Assembly: GCA_009693245.1 (NCBI GenBank)
Contig: SHXO01000031.1
Span: forward strand, 1 to 32,275
Direction: 5' to 3'
From: Betaproteobacteria bacterium
GTDB lineage: Bacteria > Pseudomonadota > Gammaproteobacteria > Burkholderiales > SHXO01
Length of the DNA stretch: 32,275 bases
In this document: positions 20,441 through 31,828 of the stretch, in pieces
Layout of the letters: each line of letters starts with the position of its first letter
How positions within the stretch are numbered: position 1 is the first letter of the stretch
Position numbers and translations under genes: made by a program
The notes under the pieces: model-generated
Databases searched by the model: none
Seen by the model: only the letters and a program-made list of their open reading frames with translations
What the model was told of the DNA's origin: nothing

Positions 20441-20992
20441 ATGCGGAAAAACTTCACCGAGTCCACGCTGGCGACGCGGACGGTCTATAGCGGCCGTTTG
20501 CTCACCGTTAAGGAAGATGACGTGCAGCTTCCCGATGGCACCAAGGCCAGGCGCGAGTACGTCGAACATTCCGGCGCCGTGATGATCCTACCCTTGTTCG
20601 AGGATTTCAGCGTGCTCCTGGAGCGCCAGTTCCGCTATCCCTTGCGATCGCACATGCTGGAGTTACCCGCCGGCAAGATCGAACCTGGAGAAGACACCCT
20701 CAACACCGCAAAGCGCGAACTATTGGAAGAGACCGGTTACGTAGCGGGCCAATGGAGTTTCATGAGCGCCCTCTATCCGTGCGTGGGGTACTCGAACGAA
20801 AAGACCGAACTCTTTCTCGCGCGCGACCTGCGCCATGAAGGGCATCCTGGAGAAGAGGGCGAATTCATCGAGACCGCTCGGGTTCCACTCGATGAGGCCC
20901 TTGGGATGGTTCAGCGTGCGGAGATCGGCGATCCGAAGACAATGCTCGGGCTGCTGTGGGCGGAGAAGATGAGAAGAGGGGAGTGGGAGTAG
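20441..20992 (+). CDS. Nudix hydrolase, ADP-ribose pyrophosphatase type
   Basis: A 183-residue Nudix protein predicted to hydrolyse ADP-ribose or a related nucleoside diphosphate sugar, a housekeeping function linked to NAD turnover. The Nudix box is complete (residues 78-100, GX5EX7REUXEEXGU): G78, E84, R92, E93, E96, E97 and G99. The upstream RQFRYPLRSHMLELPAG matches the NudF/ADPRase subfamily. It begins 7 bases after nuoN; from memory, a Nudix gene commonly closes the nuo operon in Betaproteobacteria. Its 3' end and the following bases are purine-rich and merge with a possible decayed foldback element. Confidence 0.9.
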   Translation: MRKNFTESTLATRTVYSGRLLTVKEDDVQLPDGTKARREYVEHSGAVMILPLFEDFSVLLERQFRYPLRSHMLELPAGKIEPGEDTLNTAKRELLEETGYVAGQWSFMSALYPCVGYSNEKTELFLARDLRHEGHPGEEGEFIETARVPLDEALGMVQRAEIGDPKTMLGLLWAEKMRRGEWE

Positions 20993-21771: not shown

Positions 21772-22872
21772 ATTAGCAAGCTTATGTATCCCGGAAACGG
21801 CGATATTGAAATAGCGGGGGTCTTTTTCGGCCCCTATGCTCTCATAGCCAATGGCCTCAGCGGCAGCCAGTGTAGAGCCAGCTCCTGCGAACGGGTCCAG
21901 AACAATCCCCCTTCCCAGTGGCAGAACGCCGCGAACGAGTTGCCGCAAGAATGCTTGAGGCTTCAAGCTCGGATGTGGCGCTAACGCACGCTCAGTGGCC
22001 CGAGTTGGGGATGATTCGATTACATCACCAAAGGGCCGGGACGCGGATACACGCCGGAATCCTCCCGTACCTCAGCGGCGCAAGTTGTCTTGCACACGCC
22101 CCTGCAAAGGTTTACGAAATACCAGCCATGGCTCCCACATGGAGCGCGGCATCACACTTACATCGGCGAACTCAATATGTGCATCCTTGGGACGATCCCC
22201 GCCGCGCATAGTCATCACCAATCTGGCAATTTCTCCGCGGCGTTCGAGGACCGCGCGTGAAAGTGCGCCAGAAACGACATAAGACAGAAGCGGATTACTC
22301 GCAACAACGACATTGGCCCCAGGCACCAAAGTCGGAAGAAGGCGCGCGGCCCAGGCCACGAAAAATTGCTCCAGTGCATCCAAGTCCGCCGTTTTTAGCA
22401 CTGTGAACCTCGGGAGCGGAGAGCGCTTAGTGCCATCAAAAGATGGGGGAATTCTCCAGATCACGCCGCGTCCAGCGCGAAGTTTTTTCTGCTCAAGTTC
22501 CGAGTACTCGATTAACCCATAGGGCGGGTCGGTCACGACAGCGTGAAACGAATTTGGCGTCTGTCGCTCAAGCCAGTTCAGGCAATCTTGGTGCACAATC
22601 ATGGCGTTCCCTATTCGCTCCGAACGCGTGCCAAGCTCCTTTAACCCAATTTCCTGGAGGTACTCAAGCCCGTTCAACGCGTATTGGGCACGGCCTGAGC
22701 GGGCAAATAACTCCGGAGTATTCAGCCTGAGGTACGAACGTATTGAAGAGGGTGGAACTTCGCCAATAAGCTGAGCTACTTCGCCCGCAATAATTGCCAC
22801 TGATGCTCCCTTGGGTCTGGATCCTAGAACGCGGACAATTGCATCTCTTACTTCCCCGGGTCGTCTTCTCAT
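21760..22872 (-). pseudogene. beta-class DNA (adenine-N6 or cytosine-N4) methyltransferase with an in-frame TGA
   Basis: The frame encodes about 370 residues interrupted by one TGA (22074-22072, codon 267). The first segment has a helix-turn-helix-like N-terminus (about 1-68) and catalytic motif IV DPPY at 115-118. The second continues in the same frame with GTGGFRR, PHPSLKPQAF and the AdoMet motif I DPFAGAGS (326-333). The order IV then I marks the beta class. Related enzymes carry Trp at the TGA position in the context NLRRW.TGG (from memory), so a TGG-to-TGA change is likely. Without readthrough the AdoMet motif would be lost, so the enzyme should be dead. ATG 22872 is preferred over TTG 22890. 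It is convergent with the nuclease gene. Genes nearby use TGA as stop, so recoding is unlikely. Confidence 0.75.
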
Positions 22873-22914
22873 TTCATTCTGTTTTATCAAGTAACCCGCT
22901 GGATACTAGTCTCT

Positions 22915-22938
22915 AAGACGTCTAGACGTCTAGACGTC
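22915..22938. repeat. three tandem 8-bp units with GACGTC, upstream of the methyltransferase
   Basis: AAGACGTC is followed by two TAGACGTC units, giving three GACGTC palindromes at exact 8-bp spacing and nested longer palindromes. It lies about 43 bp upstream of the methyltransferase ATG. It may be an operator, a cluster of target sites, or simple repeat expansion. Confidence 0.55.
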
Positions 22939-23016
22939 AATATTTGCTTTCCAGCCAAGCGGGCGACATTCGGTTTATGAGGGATGCGAATTCTTTGAAA
23001 CCATTGGCCCAGCCCG

Positions 23017-23048
23017 CGTAGGGCACAATAAGCGCAGCGCATCGCGCT
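23017..23048 (-). repeat. REP sequence 1
   Basis: On the minus strand it carries GATGCGCTGCGCTTATTG and ends in CCCTACG; on the plus strand it begins CGTAGGG. It is the near-complement of the REP at 23308-23340 (about 26 of 30 positions by eye). From memory, this word family (TGCGCTACGCTTATTGCGCC) is a widespread REP linked to REP-associated tyrosine transposases. It replaces the 3' half of the adjoining transposase gene. Confidence 0.75.
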
Positions 23049-23275
23049 AAATTGCGCCGCAAAATCCGCGTCGCCGGTCGGCAATTCCATGACGCAATGT
23101 AGATGATCCGGCAGCACTACCCAGCCGTGGATCTGAAACGGCTGCCGCCGCCGTATCGCGTGACCCGATTCCCGCAGCAGTTCAATATGTTCGACGAGCA
23201 GATTCTTGCCGTGCCGTAGGTTGAAGGTAAAAAATACGTTCCACCGGGATGCCAGGCGCACCGGTAGTTGGGCAT
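23049..23275 (-). pseudogene. REP-associated tyrosine transposase (RAYT, Y1 family), truncated and frameshifted
   Basis: The minus-strand ATG at 23275 starts MPNYRCAWHPGGTYF, the typical RAYT N-terminus. The frame then breaks at the run of six T (23234-23229 on the complement), where one missing T restores FTFNLRHGKNLLVEHIELL. The HUH metal motif follows as VVLPDHLHCVMELP (His residues near 23105-23095). After DADFA the sequence runs directly into REP 1, so the segment with the catalytic tyrosine is gone. From family knowledge, RAYTs are single-copy domesticated relatives of IS200/IS605 transposases that mobilise REPs. This copy cannot encode an active enzyme. Confidence 0.75.
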
Positions 23276-23307
23276 AAGGGCGGTATTCTAGCGATCTGCA
23301 TACGGCT

Positions 23308-23340
23308 CGGCGTAATGCGCTACGCTTATTGCGCCCTACG
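23308..23340 (+). repeat. REP sequence 2
   Basis: Begins CGGCGTAATGCGC and ends GCGCCCTACG on the plus strand, inverted relative to REP 1. It lies 33 bp upstream of the transposase remnant's ATG, so the remnant is bracketed by outward-facing REPs, the usual layout of a RAYT locus. The 171 bp from here to the next gene contain no feature I can name. Confidence 0.78.
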
Positions 23341-23511
23341 TGTTGGCCCTCAAGCAGGGGAGGGAATCGAGACCCTTGGAAGTCAGTCCGATCTTGATCG
23401 GTGCATCGGGTTTTCAGAATGCCGGCGCAGAAACTCACCAAGATGCTCAGCAGGTCTTGTTACCTGGTCTCCCGGTGTCCCATAATCTCACCCTCCCAAG
23501 GATGACTATGC

Positions 23512-24429: not shown

Positions 24430-25636
24430 ATGGACGACAGCATTCACACGATCACGCCCGGCTTGGGCGCGCAGGCTAGCGGGAACTCCGCAACCCCCGA
24501 AGGCCGGTGCGGCGGCAACGCCCTCGCCCGAAGCCCGGCCCTTTCGGTTCACGGGCAAAACAAGTGAATTCTTCGGGATATGGATCGTCAACCTGTTTCT
24601 GACGATCGTCACGCTGGGGATTTACTCGGCATGGGCGAAGGCGCGCAAGAAGCGCTATCTTTACGGACACACGTGGGTGGCGGACGCGAATTTCTAATAT
24701 CACGTAAATCCAATCGCCATACTCAAGAGCCGCATCATCGCGTTGTTATTATTTGGAGCCTATTCTGGAGTCGCGCATTTCATGCCCCAATTGGCGTTGT
24801 TCCTCGCGTTACTTGTGTTTGCCGCCTCGCCTTGGTTCATCGCTCGTTCGATGGCGTTCAACGCCTTCAACTCCAGTTATAGAAACATCCGGTTTCGCTT
24901 CCAGGCAGGTTATGCGGATGTATTCAAGGCGATCGGGCTCATGGGTGTTGTGCTGGCGATTTCATTCTTCGTTCCCGTGCCGGATCGTGGCCAGGATGCC
25001 GGTCCTCCCGTCTGGTTCTTCATTATTTTCGGTTTGCAGATTCTGGCTTTTCTGCTCATATATCCCTACGTCTTTGGTTCGATGAAGCGCTTACAGGTGA
25101 ACCACTCTCAGTATGGGTCCAGCCCTTTTTCGGTCACGGCCGCTATCGGCAGCTTTTACAAGATTTTTTTCCTGGCCATTGGGTTGTTTATCGTTCTACT
25201 GTGCGCGGCGTTGGCGATCGGAGCGATGGCGTTTGCGTTGATGCCGAAGCAAGGCGGCGCGGGAACTATCGTTGCACTCATCCTTGGTGCCCTGTGCATT
25301 TATTTCGCCGCGTTTCCGGTAATGATTGGATTTCTCCAATCTCGTAACGCGAATCTGGTCTTCAACACGACACGCCTTGATGAGTCCGTTTCATTTTCCA
25401 GCACGCTCAAGGCGCGCAAGCTTGCCTGGTTGTACGTGACGAATCTCCTGGCGATCGTGGTTTCTTTTGGTCTCGCGATTCCCTGGGTCGTGATCCGCTC
25501 CGTTCGGTACCGCCTCGGCTGTCTTGCGCTTGTCTCGGCCGTGCCCATCGAGCAGTTTGTCTCGGGAGTGGCCGCCAATGTGGGTGCCACGGGTGAAAAA
25601 CTCGGGGAATTCTTCAATATAGATCTCTCCTTGTGA
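24430..25636 (+). pseudogene. YjgN / DUF898 family membrane protein, frameshifted and with a nonsense codon
   Basis: ATG 24430 with AGGGAG just upstream reads MDDSIHTITPGLGAQ, then leaves frame at the C5 run 24494-24498. Removing one C joins it to KAGAAATPSPEARPFRF and the family core GKTSEFFGIWIVNLFLTIVTLGIYSAWAKARKKRYLYG. A TAA at 24695-24697 interrupts this frame where relatives have Glu (FEYH...PIAILKGR, from memory). The same frame then stays open to 25636 with six or so hydrophobic segments. The family is an integral membrane protein of unknown function, usually next to an M48 peptidase, as here. Two independent lesions make it a pseudogene unless the sequence is wrong. An unbroken 297-residue part begins with TTG 24743. 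Confidence 0.7.
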
Positions 25637-25670: not shown

Positions 25671-26582
25671 TTGCCGTTGATTTCTACGACGGCCTTTCGG
25701 CAAGGCGCCACGCCCCGGCGCATCGAGTTGCCGGGCGGTGCCGTGGCGGTCTGCGAGCACAATGAAGCGGTCGACGAGACATTCCAACTCTCTAGTCATG
25801 CCACGCTCGCCCACCGTCTCGAATCGCACGCGGGCTTTGTCCTGGCCGCGCTCGCTGGCATCGCCGTATCGATGGCGATCGGATACCTGTATGGGATTCC
25901 GTGGGTGGCGGGCGAGATCGCCCAACGGATTCCTGTTGGCATCGAAAAACAGCTCGCCGAGCAGAGCCTGAAGTCGCTCGACCAGGCGTTGTTCGGGCCG
26001 AGTGAGTTGCCCTCGGAGAAACAAAAAGATATTTCCGCTACTTTTTCCGCGTTGCGCCAAGAGGCTGGCTTGCCCGGAGAAGTACGGCTGGAGTACCGCG
26101 CCGGTCATTGGATCGGGGCGAACGCGCTGGCGCTTCCCGGCGGCGTGGTGATCATTACCGATGAACTGGTCGCGGCGGTGCCTGGTAAGGATGAAATCGC
26201 CGCCGTGCTTGCCCACGAGCTTGGGCATGTGCACTACCGCCACAGTCTGCGGCAGCTTCTGCAAAGCTCCATTACAGCCATGACGGCAATGGCCATTTAT
26301 GGAGACGTGACGGCCATTACTGGCCTTGCCGCGTCCGTGCCGGCAATGCTTGCCCATACGGGCTACTCGCGCGCGGCCGAGCGCGAATCGGACAACTTAG
26401 CATTTGTCTTGCTCAAAAAAACGGGCCGTTCGCCGCGCGCCTTTGCATCCGCCATGGCGGCGTTGGAACAAACCAGCGGTAAGAAAAACCCAGGGTCCGG
26501 GCGGGCGAAAATCCCGGGCTACTTGTCGACCCATCCTGCAACGGATGAGCGCATCGAGGCGGCTCTAGAAAATTCCGAATAA
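25671..26582 (+). CDS. M48-family metallopeptidase, 5' end damaged (probable pseudogene)
   Basis: The downstream frame encodes one membrane segment (FVLAALAGIAVSMAIGYLYG, about 57-76) and an M48 catalytic domain with the zinc motif HELGH (184-188) and the third ligand in ERESDNLAF. This is the Oma1/BepA-like type thought to act in envelope protein quality control. The family's N-terminal domain normally opens with a block like FYDGLSARRHA. That block is present from ATG 25661 (MHSLAVDFYDGLSARRHA) but in another frame, and it joins TPRRIELPGGAVAV near 25705-25715. About 35-40 codons appear deleted, out of frame. TTG 25671 is the only early start in the catalytic frame and has no good ribosome site. 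Its DUF898 partner is also broken. The catalytic domain itself looks intact. Confidence 0.6.
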   Translation: MPLISTTAFRQGATPRRIELPGGAVAVCEHNEAVDETFQLSSHATLAHRLESHAGFVLAALAGIAVSMAIGYLYGIPWVAGEIAQRIPVGIEKQLAEQSLKSLDQALFGPSELPSEKQKDISATFSALRQEAGLPGEVRLEYRAGHWIGANALALPGGVVIITDELVAAVPGKDEIAAVLAHELGHVHYRHSLRQLLQSSITAMTAMAIYGDVTAITGLAASVPAMLAHTGYSRAAERESDNLAFVLLKKTGRSPRAFASAMAALEQTSGKKNPGSGRAKIPGYLSTHPATDERIEAALENSE

Positions 26583-26620: not shown

Positions 26621-28636
26621 TTAAGGAAGGCCTCGGTTCCCTTCTAGGGGAATTTTCTCCGGCGTGTTTTCCCACAGGGGCGCGGGCGTCTTGAAGTAGA
26701 ACCCTTGGCCGAAGGGGGTTCCCATCGCCTTGAGGATGTCCATGACGTCCTTGGTTTCCACCCATTCCGCGATGACTTGTTTGTTCAGGCCCTCGGCGAC
26801 GTCGCACAGCGCGCGCACTAAGATGCGGTTGGCTTCGTCCGTGGCCAGGTCGCGCACGAATCCGCCGTCAATCTTCAGATAATCGACGTCAAAGCGTTTC
26901 AGGTAGTAGAAGGAACTGAATCCCGCGCCGAAGTCATCGAGCGCGAAGCGGCAGCCCATGCTCTTGAGTTCTCGAATGAACTGCTCGGTCACATCCACGT
27001 CGTGCATGGCCGCCGTTTCCGTGATTTCGAATACCAACTGGCTCACGTCGGCGGAACTCGATTCCAGCATGCGATGAAACTTTCGCACCCACTGCGGATC
27101 GGAAATACTGGTGCGGGAGAGATTCACGAAGTAGCGCCATTTCGGTCCCCGGTCAGCGCATTTTCCCAGGTATTCCAGTATTCGTTGCACCACGCGCATG
27201 TCGAACTCTTGCACCAAGCCCAAGGACTCCGCGTGCTCGATGAATTGGCTGGGCAAGACGATGCCCCCTTCCTCGTCGTGGATGCGCAGCAGGATTTCGC
27301 AGTGCATGGCTCGCAAATCGGACAGCCGCACGACCGGTTGGTAGTAGAGCGATATGCGGTCATCGTCCAAGACGTGGCGCAGCTGGCTTGACCACTGCAC
27401 GCGGTTTTGGGTGTGGCGCAGGCCGCGAGCATCGTGATCGTATAGGAAGTGGCGGTTACGGCCGCTATCATTCGCTTGGTACATGGCGCGATCCGCGCTG
27501 GATAGCAATGTGGCGACGTCCACGCCATGGAAGGGATAAAGGGCAATGCCGATGGAGGCCGTGACGCTCGACATGCGGTGCTGGCCGAGGGCCAGAAAGC
27601 GGTAGTGGCGCAAGGACTCGAGCACGTGATCCGCCGCGCGCACGGCCTGGCTGCGCAAGACTTCGGGAAGATGCACGGCATACTCGTCGCCGCCCAAGCG
27701 AAAGACTTGGCCGCCATGATCCTTTGCCGCCTCCTTCAACACACCACTTACTCCGGCGATGAGATGGTCGCCAGCCCGGTGGCCAAAGTTATCGTTGACG
27801 TACTTGAAGTGATCGATGTCGATGAAAAGCACGGCGCCCACGTCGCGCGACGCGAGCGCTTGTTCGAGTGTGCGTTGCAAACTCACACGGTTGGGTAAGC
27901 TCGTGAGCGCGTCGTGGGTCGCCAAATACTCGATGGTGCGCGCGGCTTCTTGTTCCGCCGTGACGTTTCTGGCCGTGCCGCGGACACCGTAAATTTGCCC
28001 GTTCTCATCACGGGTGAGGCGCGCATTGATGCCCACCCAGCGATCTGTGCCATCCGAGGAGATCACGCACGCGACGTAGTCCTTGATTTCTCCGCTTCCG
28101 AGCAGCACCGACAAAGAGCGGAGGTTGGAAAACCGGGAGGATCTGGACTCGAAATCGAAGATGCTACGGCCCAGTAACTGTTGGGCCGCGAGGCCGAAAA
28201 TACTTGCCGTGGCGTTGCTCAAGTAAGTAAACCGGCCTTGCGTATCCGTGGTCCAGATCAAGTCGTGGGAAGTTTCCACCAAATCCCGGTAACGATTCTC
28301 GCTTTCGATCAGGAGTTGGGTGACTTGGCGCTTGTCTTGGAGGGCCTTCTTCTCGGAGGCGGGCTTGTCCCGCACGTTCGGCGAAGGCTGGACAGCAGCG
28401 CGGGTGAGACTCTCGATCATCTCGCTGGAATAGCGGCGGTGGCCCCCGTCCGTGCGGCGCGCGACAAGCACCCCTTGGGCGTCCCAACGCCGTAGTTTTT
28501 GTACCGGTACTCCGAGCCTGATCGAGGCGTCTCGAATGGAATATTCGGCATCCGGTGAATTTGGCCCCAGAACTTCGCTCATCCCTGGTTGTGTTGCGGG
28601 AGTTATCTTGCTCCCTTCATTGCCCGTGGCGGACAC
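26621..28636 (-). CDS. MerR-type HTH / PAS / GGDEF / EAL cyclic-di-GMP signalling protein
   Basis: A predicted 671-residue soluble protein with four modules. A MerR/excisionase-like HTH is at about 33-80 (YSIRDASIRLGVPVQKLRRW, then GGHRRYS). A PAS domain is at 113-225. A GGDEF domain (233-400) has the active-site GGDEY at 315-319 but no RxxD inhibitory site. An EAL domain (412-655) has E447 in the ExLxR position (EILLR), N505, E537, D567/D568, K588, E627 and Q644. Both catalytic sites look competent, so it may synthesise and degrade c-di-GMP. The DNA-binding module on such a protein is unusual. The start is GTG 28636 or ATG 28582 (Met19); neither has a strong ribosome site, and both keep the HTH. 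It is downstream of the propeller dehydrogenase on the same strand with a 76-base gap and convergent with the M48 gene. Confidence 0.88.
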   Translation of the reverse strand: MSATGNEGSKITPATQPGMSEVLGPNSPDAEYSIRDASIRLGVPVQKLRRWDAQGVLVARRTDGGHRRYSSEMIESLTRAAVQPSPNVRDKPASEKKALQDKRQVTQLLIESENRYRDLVETSHDLIWTTDTQGRFTYLSNATASIFGLAAQQLLGRSIFDFESRSSRFSNLRSLSVLLGSGEIKDYVACVISSDGTDRWVGINARLTRDENGQIYGVRGTARNVTAEQEAARTIEYLATHDALTSLPNRVSLQRTLEQALASRDVGAVLFIDIDHFKYVNDNFGHRAGDHLIAGVSGVLKEAAKDHGGQVFRLGGDEYAVHLPEVLRSQAVRAADHVLESLRHYRFLALGQHRMSSVTASIGIALYPFHGVDVATLLSSADRAMYQANDSGRNRHFLYDHDARGLRHTQNRVQWSSQLRHVLDDDRISLYYQPVVRLSDLRAMHCEILLRIHDEEGGIVLPSQFIEHAESLGLVQEFDMRVVQRILEYLGKCADRGPKWRYFVNLSRTSISDPQWVRKFHRMLESSSADVSQLVFEITETAAMHDVDVTEQFIRELKSMGCRFALDDFGAGFSSFYYLKRFDVDYLKIDGGFVRDLATDEANRILVRALCDVAEGLNKQVIAEWVETKDVMDILKAMGTPFGQGFYFKTPAPLWENTPEKIPLEGNRGLP

Positions 28637-28712: not shown

Positions 28713-29813
28713 TCATTGGCGCCGGTAGGAAACGTGGTAGACCACCCCCGCGTAATCGTCGGAAACCAGCAAAGCGCCGTCGGGCATTACCAGCACATCG
28801 ACGGGACGTCCCCATACCTGCTCATTCTCCATCCAACCCGAAGCGAACACTTCGGACTTTGCGATCTTGCCCTCACGCGCTGTTGCCACGATGAGACGAT
28901 AGCCGCTTTTCTTGCTGCGATTCCAAGAACCGTGCTGGGCGATGAAGATTGCGTTGTGGTATTCCTCGGGAAACATTTTCCCAGTGTAGAAGCGCAACCC
29001 GTCAGGCGCCACGTGCCCGCCTTGCTTGAGCGCTGGCGGCGTGAATTCCGAACACGCGCGGCGCTTGCCGAAATCTGGATCGGCCGTGTCGCCCTGGTGG
29101 CAATAGGGAAAGCCGAAATGCATCCCGGCCCTGGGCGCGTGATTGAGCTCGCAAGAGGGAAGATCGTCTCCCATGTGGTCGCGGCCGTGGTCGTTGAACC
29201 ATAGCTCCTTGGTTCGCGGATCCCAGTCGAATCCCACGCTATTGCGCACACCGCGCGCGAACACCTCGTAACCCGAACCGTCGGGGTTGATCCTGGAGAT
29301 CAGCGCATAGCGGTCCGGGTCCTCCTCGCACACGTTACAAGGCCCGCCCACCGGCACGTAGAGCTTGCCATCGGGCCCGAAGGCAATGAATTTCCAGCCA
29401 TGATGACCCTCGCGCGGGAAACGATCGGTGACCAGCACGGGCTTAGGCGGCATGTCCAGCAGGGAATCGATCCGGTCATAGCGCAGAATGCGGTCGATAT
29501 CGGCGACGTAGAGGCTGCCATCGCGGTAGGCCACGCCGTTCGGTGAGTTGAGGACGCTGGCGATGGTGAGCACCTTGTTCCCCGCGGCGGAAGGAACCAC
29601 GGCGTACACCTTACCCACGCGCTGCGTGCCCACGAACACCACCCCATTGGCTCCCAGAGCCATGGAACGGGCGCCAGGAACCTCGGCATAGACGCTGATT
29701 TCGAATCCCGGTGGCAGCTTGATTCTGTTTAGAGGCAGGTTTTTGGTCCAGCCCGCCACCGGGAGAGTCATCAGCGCCAGGGCTAACAAGCGGAGAAGCG
29801 ATATGTGCGTCAT
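28713..29813 (-). CDS. exported six-bladed beta-propeller (PQQ-dependent sugar dehydrogenase-type) protein
   Basis: A 366-residue protein with a signal peptide (about 1-23, core LLRLLALALMTLPVAG) and the NHL/glucose-sorbosone dehydrogenase fold. Examples are LPPGFEISVYAEVPGARSMA near the start, the EGHHGWKFIAFGPDGKLYV blade with the conserved histidine, the CNVCEED pair that may form a disulfide, and GLRFYTG and GSWNRS blades near the end. From family knowledge such proteins oxidise aldoses or sorbosone with PQQ in the periplasm, but many members are uncharacterised and PQQ binding is unproven. ATG 29813 is chosen because it starts the signal peptide; the frame is open further upstream only into the htpG promoter region. 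It is divergent from htpG with an 83-bp gap. Confidence 0.8.
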   Translation of the reverse strand: MTHISLLRLLALALMTLPVAGWTKNLPLNRIKLPPGFEISVYAEVPGARSMALGANGVVFVGTQRVGKVYAVVPSAAGNKVLTIASVLNSPNGVAYRDGSLYVADIDRILRYDRIDSLLDMPPKPVLVTDRFPREGHHGWKFIAFGPDGKLYVPVGGPCNVCEEDPDRYALISRINPDGSGYEVFARGVRNSVGFDWDPRTKELWFNDHGRDHMGDDLPSCELNHAPRAGMHFGFPYCHQGDTADPDFGKRRACSEFTPPALKQGGHVAPDGLRFYTGKMFPEEYHNAIFIAQHGSWNRSKKSGYRLIVATAREGKIAKSEVFASGWMENEQVWGRPVDVLVMPDGALLVSDDYAGVVYHVSYRRQ

Positions 29814-29837
29814 GCGGAATGTCCTTTCATGGCGGGC

Positions 29838-29865
29838 CTTGAATTTGGCGGGTTCGGCCCCAAAT
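29838..29865 (+). promoter_or_regulatory. sigma-32 heat-shock promoter of htpG
   Basis: CTTGAAT (29838-29844), a 13-bp spacer and CCCCAAAT (29858-29865) match the RpoH consensus CTTGAAA-N11-16-CCCCATNT closely (6 of 7 and 7 of 8, counting N). Transcription would start about 25 bases before the htpG ATG. The function of the downstream gene supports the call strongly. Confidence 0.85.
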
Positions 29866-29896
29866 CCGCGAAGGTCTACCGTAGGGAGAGAAAACG

Positions 29897-31828
<1,932 letters not shown>

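Follow-up and report, generated by a model that had tools for sequence, protein, structure and literature searches.

What does a DNA-binding head do at the front of a bifunctional c-di-GMP (cyclic di-GMP) enzyme? This question is raised by an open reading frame (ORF) on the reverse strand (26621-28636) of contig SHXO01000031.1 from a Betaproteobacteria bacterium of the order Burkholderiales (assembly GCA_009693245.1). The contig of 32,275 nucleotides was analysed at its full length and is called the window below. The predicted protein carries a helix-turn-helix (HTH) of the MerR type in front of PAS, GGDEF and EAL domains. A first-pass annotation, made from the letters alone, had suggested that it could couple local c-di-GMP turnover directly to promoter binding or act as a trigger enzyme. 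The protein belongs to a lineage-restricted family whose genes are linked to rpfF, the gene for the synthase of the diffusible signal factor (DSF), and to a 23-bp inverted repeat at the rpfF promoter. With a probability of roughly 0.6, the family would consist of one-component trigger regulators whose HTH is driven by a PAS-GGDEF-EAL sensor of the same chain, the window protein being an orphaned member.

A MerR-type head on a PAS-GGDEF-EAL protein

The ORF comprises 671 codons from a GTG start and has exactly the coordinates given in the first-pass annotation. Its start is uncertain: the ATG at codon 19 (28582) lies closer to the beginning of the conserved part (residue ~30), and by eye a convincing ribosome site was seen for neither codon. 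The claimed MerR-type head was confirmed with Pfam, where both MerR (PF00376; residues 33-69, E = 6.4e-10, 39.1 bits against a cut-off of 28.2) and MerR_1 (PF13411; 35.6 bits against 21.6) were matched. PAS (115-223), GGDEF (239-395) and EAL (418-651) likewise exceeded their curated cut-offs and follow each other in the order known from RpfR. The catalytic residues, described earlier as intact, were all found, namely the GGDEY motif as well as E447, N505, E537, D567, D568, K588, E624, E627 and Q644, the catalytic positions described in the EAL literature. The protein thereby shares an intact EAL active site with the trigger phosphodiesterases. No named equivalog was found for it; even the best-scoring NCBI equivalog models, DibA and PdeR among them, remained far below their cut-offs.

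Across 40 other full-length family members, fourteen positions of the HTH do not vary. As the window protein retains all fourteen, its HTH is not a chance match. LRRW, L57, A59, R61 and GGHRRY were also invariant in a 38-row alignment reaching down to 48% identity. A structure prediction lacking an HTH had been named as a possible refutation; the AlphaFold2 model, calculated on a 28-row alignment, displayed an HTH-like arrangement with a strand (31-33), two helices (34-41 and 45-53), a further strand (67-70) and a helix (71-82) at a predicted local distance difference test score (pLDDT) of 76-87 for this block. A loose stretch follows and then a helix (93-122) that runs into the PAS domain. 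With a mean pLDDT of 80.4 and a predicted template modelling score of 0.44, the arrangement of the domains is not fixed by the model. The fold search gave no independent support for the HTH, the matches listed being PAS/LOV or GGDEF-EAL structures.

Among proteins of solved structure, the nearest sequences to the head were CarH-type (3whp, 5c8d) and the DNA-binding protein 6ama, which we take to be BldC. None of the NCBI MerR subfamily cut-offs (HspR, BldC, CarH, SoxR, MlrA) was reached, the best scores being 30.5 of 105 bits for HspR and 29.7 of 77 for BldC. Heads of the BldC, CarH and HspR types are the closest solved or curated relatives, but they differ from the family in their partners and inputs. 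A kinship with MlrA or BluR was unsupported (13.8 bits with the MlrA model).

Distribution and variants of the family

A first search detected the family protein in 14 of 60 relatives, the window's own genome included. The 37 near relatives from the named genome collection (L022-L058) all bear titles beginning with 'MAG:' and are labelled Burkholderiales, Betaproteobacteria, beta proteobacterium or Pseudomonadota, with one Bordetella parapertussis; no cultured isolate was found among them. A profile of the HTH-PAS part matched 45 of 399 genomes of the order Burkholderiales at E ≤ 1e-40 and none of 366 genomes sampled from the remaining orders of the class. The latter figure is at most one off: four of the 369 class genomes were listed as the same order or the own genome, which was the sole match, and the remainder was taken as other orders. 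In a phylum sample of 299 genomes (E ≤ 1e-20), three other genomes matched only beyond the HTH. These counts of MerR-GGDEF/EAL fusions are those reached with the HTH-PAS profile of this one family. The family is monophyletic and restricted to a lineage of uncultured Burkholderiales. Regarding the earlier question of how common the fusion is, the architecture is neither unique to the window's genome nor common, and neither a MerR-GGDEF/EAL fusion nor a MerR-type DSF receptor was named in the open-licence PMC literature searched.

The catalytic domains are less strictly kept across the family than the HTH. Eight members (L033, L040, L043, L042, L058, L041, L015 and L055) carry E624K in the EAL domain and five of these additionally D568N. 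L021 also has a lysine at position 624 as well as a changed GGDEF motif, and K278R occurs in L017 and L018. In such members the HTH outlasts the active sites, which suggests that the family primarily serves to bind DNA. A diverged HTH without GGHRRY was seen in the f13 members L233 and L234.

The E624K members form one clade for which a loss of phosphodiesterase activity is predicted, with the HTH intact. In most members the EAL loop around residue 624 reads AEWVE, with a tryptophan after the conserved glutamate; the usual motif at this place is AEGVE, with a glycine.

Linkage to an RpfF-type synthase

In 45 of the 51 family loci, the gene immediately before the family gene, in the same orientation, is an rpfF homologue; the 51 loci contain the duplicates L009/L022, L010/L023, L015/L039 and L019/L045 and the near-duplicate L034/L035. 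The distance from rpfF to the HTH codons is 34-300 bp in most loci and larger in L025, L052, L028, L014 and L037. Without an upstream rpfF are the window (L001), L055, L015, L039, L041 and L051, the last of which has no upstream sequence. The usual order is an Aas-like acyltransferase/ligase gene (reverse), the crotonase gene (forward), the family gene (forward), a NUDIX gene (reverse) and then a cluster that we read from its sequences as nuoN-M-L-like.

The crotonase is RpfF-like: its four best PDB matches are of the RpfF type (1.6e-55 to 2.6e-49), and the next crotonase follows at 6.9e-15. Both active-site glutamates, which are the catalytic ones of RpfF, were present in 43 of 43 matches. 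The homologue exceeded the cut-off of the PRK08788 crotonase model and stayed below the NCBI RpfF equivalog cut-off (216 versus 550 bits).

The conserved pairing with rpfF could also be read differently, with the N-terminal domain standing in for the RpfR domain FI as a protein-interaction module that binds RpfF instead of DNA. In RpfR, FI (residues 1-95) stands at the same position and binds and inhibits RpfF (PMC6361424). Such a role is very improbable for the family, as both MerR models exceed their cut-offs and the HTH is conserved in members without rpfF, the window protein included.

RpfR proper occurs in the same order (42 and 56% identical to E. coli PdeR), where it is convergent with a more distant rpfF (L241, L242). 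Orthology of the family to RpfR was rejected: in a FastTree phylogeny of PAS-GGDEF-EAL proteins the RpfR/PdeR clade is separate from the family, and PdeR scores many other PAS-GGDEF-EAL proteins above it.

A 23-bp dyad at the predicted rpfF promoter

After removal of duplicates and of loci with too little upstream sequence, 38 upstream regions were compared. All 38 contain a 23-bp inverted repeat upstream of rpfF with the consensus AAATCTATCAAATTGTTAGATTT. The refined matrix gave 17.8-38.3 bits on these regions versus a maximum of 13.7 in dinucleotide-type shuffles, and in a leave-one-out test every region exceeded the best of 40 shuffles of its own sequence. The dyad lies 94 to 217 bp before the rpfF start, between rpfF and the acyl-ligase gene, and where a locus has one, no second place in that locus exceeds 11 bits. 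A G directly after it and a TTAAAT-like block are conserved as well. These elements fit a predicted sigma-70 promoter with a -35-like TTGCTT, a 17-bp spacer and a -10-like TTAAAT, in which the right end of the dyad is inside the -35 box. Judged by sequence, this position would fit a repressor as well as an activator of a class II-like kind, and either sign of regulation may apply.

The dyad was searched in 30 of the 45 family genomes with up to two mismatches. This yielded 113 matches (counted on two strands) versus 3 for the reversed pattern, and 27 of the 30 genomes had a site. The three without it, namely G000 (the window's genome), G032 and G677, all lack rpfF; the fourth rpfF-less genome among the 30 (G648) has a site. 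Over the 399 genomes of the order, with up to one mismatch, the dyad was found in 23 of 45 genomes with the protein versus 2 of 354 without it. At the same stringency, none of the 33 genomes with rpfF and without the family protein carried the dyad. The dyad follows the protein, not rpfF alone. Counted by family label, dyads occurred in 8 of the 11 families having the protein and in one other (f16). L233 and L234 with their diverged HTH have no dyad, although L233 adjoins an rpfF.

Further dyad sites and their neighbours

Beyond rpfF, 41 sites in 40 stretches were inspected. They were picked by hand, mostly with 0-1 mismatch, and are neither a random nor a complete sample; the site in L270 comes from a genome without a family protein and the one in L268 scores low (15 bits). 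Genes around the sites were called by a hexamer coding score that misplaced the start of the window's own gene, which makes the starts rough. None of the 41 sites lies inside a called gene, and for 35 a called gene start follows within 600 bp downstream, on either side.

Pfam assigned several neighbours to c-di-GMP-type signalling proteins: response regulator-PAS-GAF-GGDEF-EAL (L175), HAMP-GAF-GGDEF (L176), PAS-GAF-HD of an HD-GYP-like kind (L183), GGDEF-EAL (L191) and Cache-HAMP-GAF-GGDEF-EAL (L267). In L177, a response-regulator gene followed by a CheW gene was read as pilG-H-I, and in L181 luxR lies 119 bp away, followed by luxI. ABC exporters (L182, L186, L269), a lipase (L174), a patatin (L271) and iron-containing redox enzymes (Haem_oxygenas_2, TENA-like in Pfam; L258, L198) were further neighbours. 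For several proteins no Pfam family match was obtained, and some of the proteins compared with Pfam were spurious ORFs chosen by length. The share of c-di-GMP genes among the sites is given as a description, and no significance is claimed for it. The neighbours resemble the expected targets of a DSF or c-di-GMP regulator; in B. cenocepacia, RpfR-GtrR controls the N-acyl homoserine lactone (AHL) synthase gene cepI (review PMC12838280).

Similar iron-containing redox proteins were seen by eye at L259, L264 and L265. The redox gene of L198 is followed by a P450-like ORF (by eye), and the two may form a candidate signal-modifying or secondary-metabolite operon. A short protein recurs beside the dyad sites of L189 and L252; its copy in L189 has no Pfam match.

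The orphaned member in the window

The positions of the features in the window are given in Table 1. No rpfF was found in the window's genome (97% completeness), where the best match has 32% identity over about 150 residues, and an intact dyad was found in neither the window nor its genome in three tests. The circuit proposed for the relatives is hence not intact in this organism. A GSDH-like gene takes the place that rpfF has in relatives. In L054, L043, L058, L042, L050 and L056, htpG and a GSDH-like gene are found on the far side of the Aas-rpfF pair, so that a loss of this pair in the window's lineage is the simplest reading. By the FastTree phylogeny, this loss is independent of the one in L055/L015/L041.

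Table 1. Features of the window around the family gene and their supporting evidence
Feature	Position	Strand	Remarks
MerR-PAS-GGDEF-EAL ORF	26621..28636	-	671 codons from GTG; alternative start ATG at 28582 (codon 19)
MerR-type HTH and wing	28403..28543	-	residues 32-78; Pfam MerR/MerR_1, invariance, model secondary structure
Predicted long connecting helix	28271..28360	-	residues 93-122; AlphaFold2
PAS domain, putative ligand sensor	27947..28297	-	residues 114-230
GGDEF domain	27452..27922	-	residues 239-395; motif GGDEY
EAL domain	26684..27385	-	residues 418-651; motif EIL, catalytic residues present
Glucose/sorbosone-dehydrogenase-like (GSDH) gene	28713..29909	-	Pfam GSDH; directly upstream, in the place of rpfF in relatives
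htpG	29897..31828	+	syntenic landmark, also in several loci of relatives
NUDIX-like gene	20441..20992	+	resembles by eye cluster c4 (Pfam NUDIX, just beyond the family gene of relatives)

Compared with 40 members, the family-invariant PAS residues N140, C158, R172 and F174 are changed only in the window protein, with N171 and N204 kept. In the linker (79-113) the invariants L92 and R104 are lost and 5 of 11 otherwise conserved positions are changed. The enzyme domains depart from the family invariants at K389 and F606 only. The ratio of nonsynonymous to synonymous differences (pN/pS) against L022, L023 and L011 was about 0.2 for the HTH, 0.2-0.3 for GGDEF and EAL, about 0.3 for PAS and 0.55-0.77 for the linker.

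In the window's organism the protein might be an ordinary bifunctional c-di-GMP enzyme with a relic DNA-binding head. The missing rpfF and dyad as well as the PAS and linker residues lost only here are in favour of a relic. Some comparisons with sister sequences also give the sensory half a higher rate of change than the catalytic half, with a Fisher p that ranges from 0.002 to 1.0 according to the outgroup chosen. The head itself, with all fourteen invariant positions kept and a pN/pS of about 0.2, looks to be under purifying selection, and a relic is considered unlikely. The window copy is instead read as a derived, orphaned member whose enzyme and head look selected and whose input has changed. 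In this organism DNA binding and c-di-GMP turnover have probably persisted, with an altered input.

Two ORFs between the NUDIX-like and alaX-like genes (22072-23441, reverse), which by their motifs we take to be a DNA methyltransferase (DPPYG) and a REP-associated RAYT-like transposase (DHLHCVM), may mark the insertion of a mobile element close to where the family gene stood ancestrally. A DUF898 membrane protein gene (24743-25636, forward) adjoins an M48 metalloprotease gene (25671-26582); both are ordinary neighbours.

The PAS domain and its putative ligand

In RpfR, the residues S169, N172, Y183, R187 and N202 are ligand contacts, N202 being the cis-2 contact (Waldron et al., PMC6361424). 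N202 aligns to N204 of the family, an asparagine in 14 of 14 family members, 3 of 3 RpfR-type proteins and 4 of 33 other PAS-GGDEF-EAL proteins. At S169, N172, Y183 and R187 the aligned family residues differ, leaving one RpfR contact clearly kept. Since most contacts are not conserved, it is mainly the linkage to rpfF that suggests a binding of DSF by the family PAS.

Alternatively, the PAS domain could sense something other than a DSF signal, with rpfF merely being co-regulated. The unconserved carboxylate contacts and the position of the family outside the RpfR clade agree with another ligand. The close linkage of an RpfF-like synthase in 45 of the 51 loci, the conservation of N204 as in RpfR and the loss of PAS residues in the very lineage that lost rpfF do not, and a different ligand appears rather unlikely. 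A DSF-type ligand is the preferred candidate below.

Proposed mode of action

In the family, the N-terminal MerR-type winged HTH would bind the 23-bp inverted repeat overlapping the -35 box of the promoter of the rpfF-receptor operon. The same HTH would bind the dyads beside genes for twitching motility, export, AHL quorum sensing and c-di-GMP turnover. Connected to the HTH through the long helix, the PAS domain would act as the sensor of a small molecule; the most likely ligand is the DSF-type fatty acid that RpfF, encoded in the same operon, would produce. c-di-GMP would be bound and turned over by the PAS-GGDEF-EAL module, and the state of this module would be relayed to the HTH. Signal level and c-di-GMP would together set promoter occupancy, which would place the principle of RpfR-GtrR or PdeR-MlrA in one chain. 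The binding of the dyad by the HTH, the binding of DSF by the PAS domain and the control of DNA binding by c-di-GMP are steps that we infer from sequence.

Several observations weigh against this reading, among them the low RpfF equivalog score, the differing RpfR contacts and the window protein itself with neither rpfF nor dyad. Classical MerR operators are located in a lengthened spacer of 19-20 bp between -35 and -10; unlike these, the dyad lies upstream of and overlaps the -35 box, and the spacer has 17 bp. Fisher's exact test for the association across genomes (p 8e-23 for the dyad, 5e-25 for rpfF) ignores relatedness. In three of the four tested rpfF-less family genomes the dyad is missing at up to two mismatches and the HTH is intact, so that further reasons for keeping the HTH must exist. 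G713 (L232) keeps rpfF and the dyad though its family gene appears disrupted upstream of or within PAS: its protein matches cover only residues 164-654, and the dyad has so far outlived the head. An association of HTH and dyad is also not proof that this HTH binds the dyad.

The dyad could be the site of another, unlinked regulator, such as a fatty-acid-responsive repressor, with the MerR head binding other DNA and the association reflecting the ancestry of the rpfF locus. The separability of dyad and HTH in the rpfF-less genomes, the dyad retained in G713 and its location between rpfF and the acyl-ligase gene would all agree with this. The absence of the dyad from the 33 genomes with rpfF homologues and without the protein argues against it, and so does its absence from the relatives with a diverged HTH, even beside the rpfF of L233. 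Moreover, no other recurring DNA-binding gene was seen in the conserved cluster, and fatty-acid genes are a minority among the neighbours of the other sites. An unlinked regulator is thus deemed quite unlikely, and binding of the dyad by the family's own head is preferred. The coupling of turnover to promoter binding or a trigger function, as initially suggested, is the best-supported reading for the family in view of HTH constraint, rpfF operon and dyads; this part of the suggestion may stand, with the limit that the proposed circuit is incomplete in the window's genome, where rpfF and dyad are missing.

Comparison with known regulators

RpfR-RpfF of Burkholderia and Cronobacter, with GtrR, is likewise a PAS-GGDEF-EAL protein genetically linked to rpfF. 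There, the c-di-GMP state sets the promoter activity of the RpfR regulator complex, which also controls AHL synthesis (PMC6361424, PMC12838280). RpfR has an FI domain and a separate DNA-binding partner, whereas the family has a MerR HTH in place of FI; rpfF and rpfR are convergent in the RpfR system and rpfF and the family gene co-directional. RpfR-BerB is a neighbour in concept (PMC9684580).

In E. coli, the PAS-GGDEF-EAL trigger phosphodiesterase PdeR controls the MerR-like MlrA by direct contact (PMC5052742). In PdeR-DgcM-MlrA, enzyme and regulator are separate proteins and PdeR belongs to the RpfR clade, whereas the family joins both in one chain. PdeL (YahA) of E. coli has an N-terminal HTH fused to an active EAL domain, and it attaches to the promoter region of its own gene at an imperfect palindrome (PMC5052742). 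Its HTH is of the LuxR type, in contrast to the MerR-type HTH of the family. PdeL is not known to have a PAS or GGDEF domain or a link to rpfF.

The MerR-like repressor BluR of E. coli is controlled by the EAL protein BluF (PMC3509220); unlike in the family, these are separate proteins with a degenerate EAL and blue-light input. DsfR of B. cenocepacia is a DSF-family receptor that binds promoters directly, and its deletion lowers the expression of cepI and rpfF. It is a fatty acyl-CoA ligase with a leucine zipper, and c-di-GMP domains are unmentioned for it in the excerpts of the review (PMC12838280); the family has GGDEF-EAL. Taken from its sequence, the family would be a c-di-GMP regulator of the trigger type, equipped with a MerR head of its own and linked to DSF signalling.

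In RpfR and PdeR, the way from the c-di-GMP state to the promoter has been studied via separate partners (GtrR, BerB, MlrA). The fusion and its predicted operator would bring the whole path into one protein and one DNA site, on which ligand, messenger, enzyme and binding could be measured together, and the E624K clade offers a natural test of enzyme versus sensor function. In lineages represented here by metagenome-assembled genomes alone, the dyad is a handle on the signalling regulon. The link to DSF is the more interesting part and goes beyond what the first-pass annotation could see. Tentatively, and at somewhat less than even odds, the family may represent an undescribed class of quorum-sensing receptors in uncultured Burkholderiales in which one chain senses an RpfF-made fatty acid, reads and resets c-di-GMP and binds its own 23-bp operator. 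It would regulate rpfF, c-di-GMP enzymes, AHL signalling and twitching, and in some lineages it would have become a non-enzymatic sensor-regulator (E624K) or, after the loss of rpfF as in the window, an orphan listener. The family suggests an undescribed way of turning cell-to-cell signals directly into gene control.

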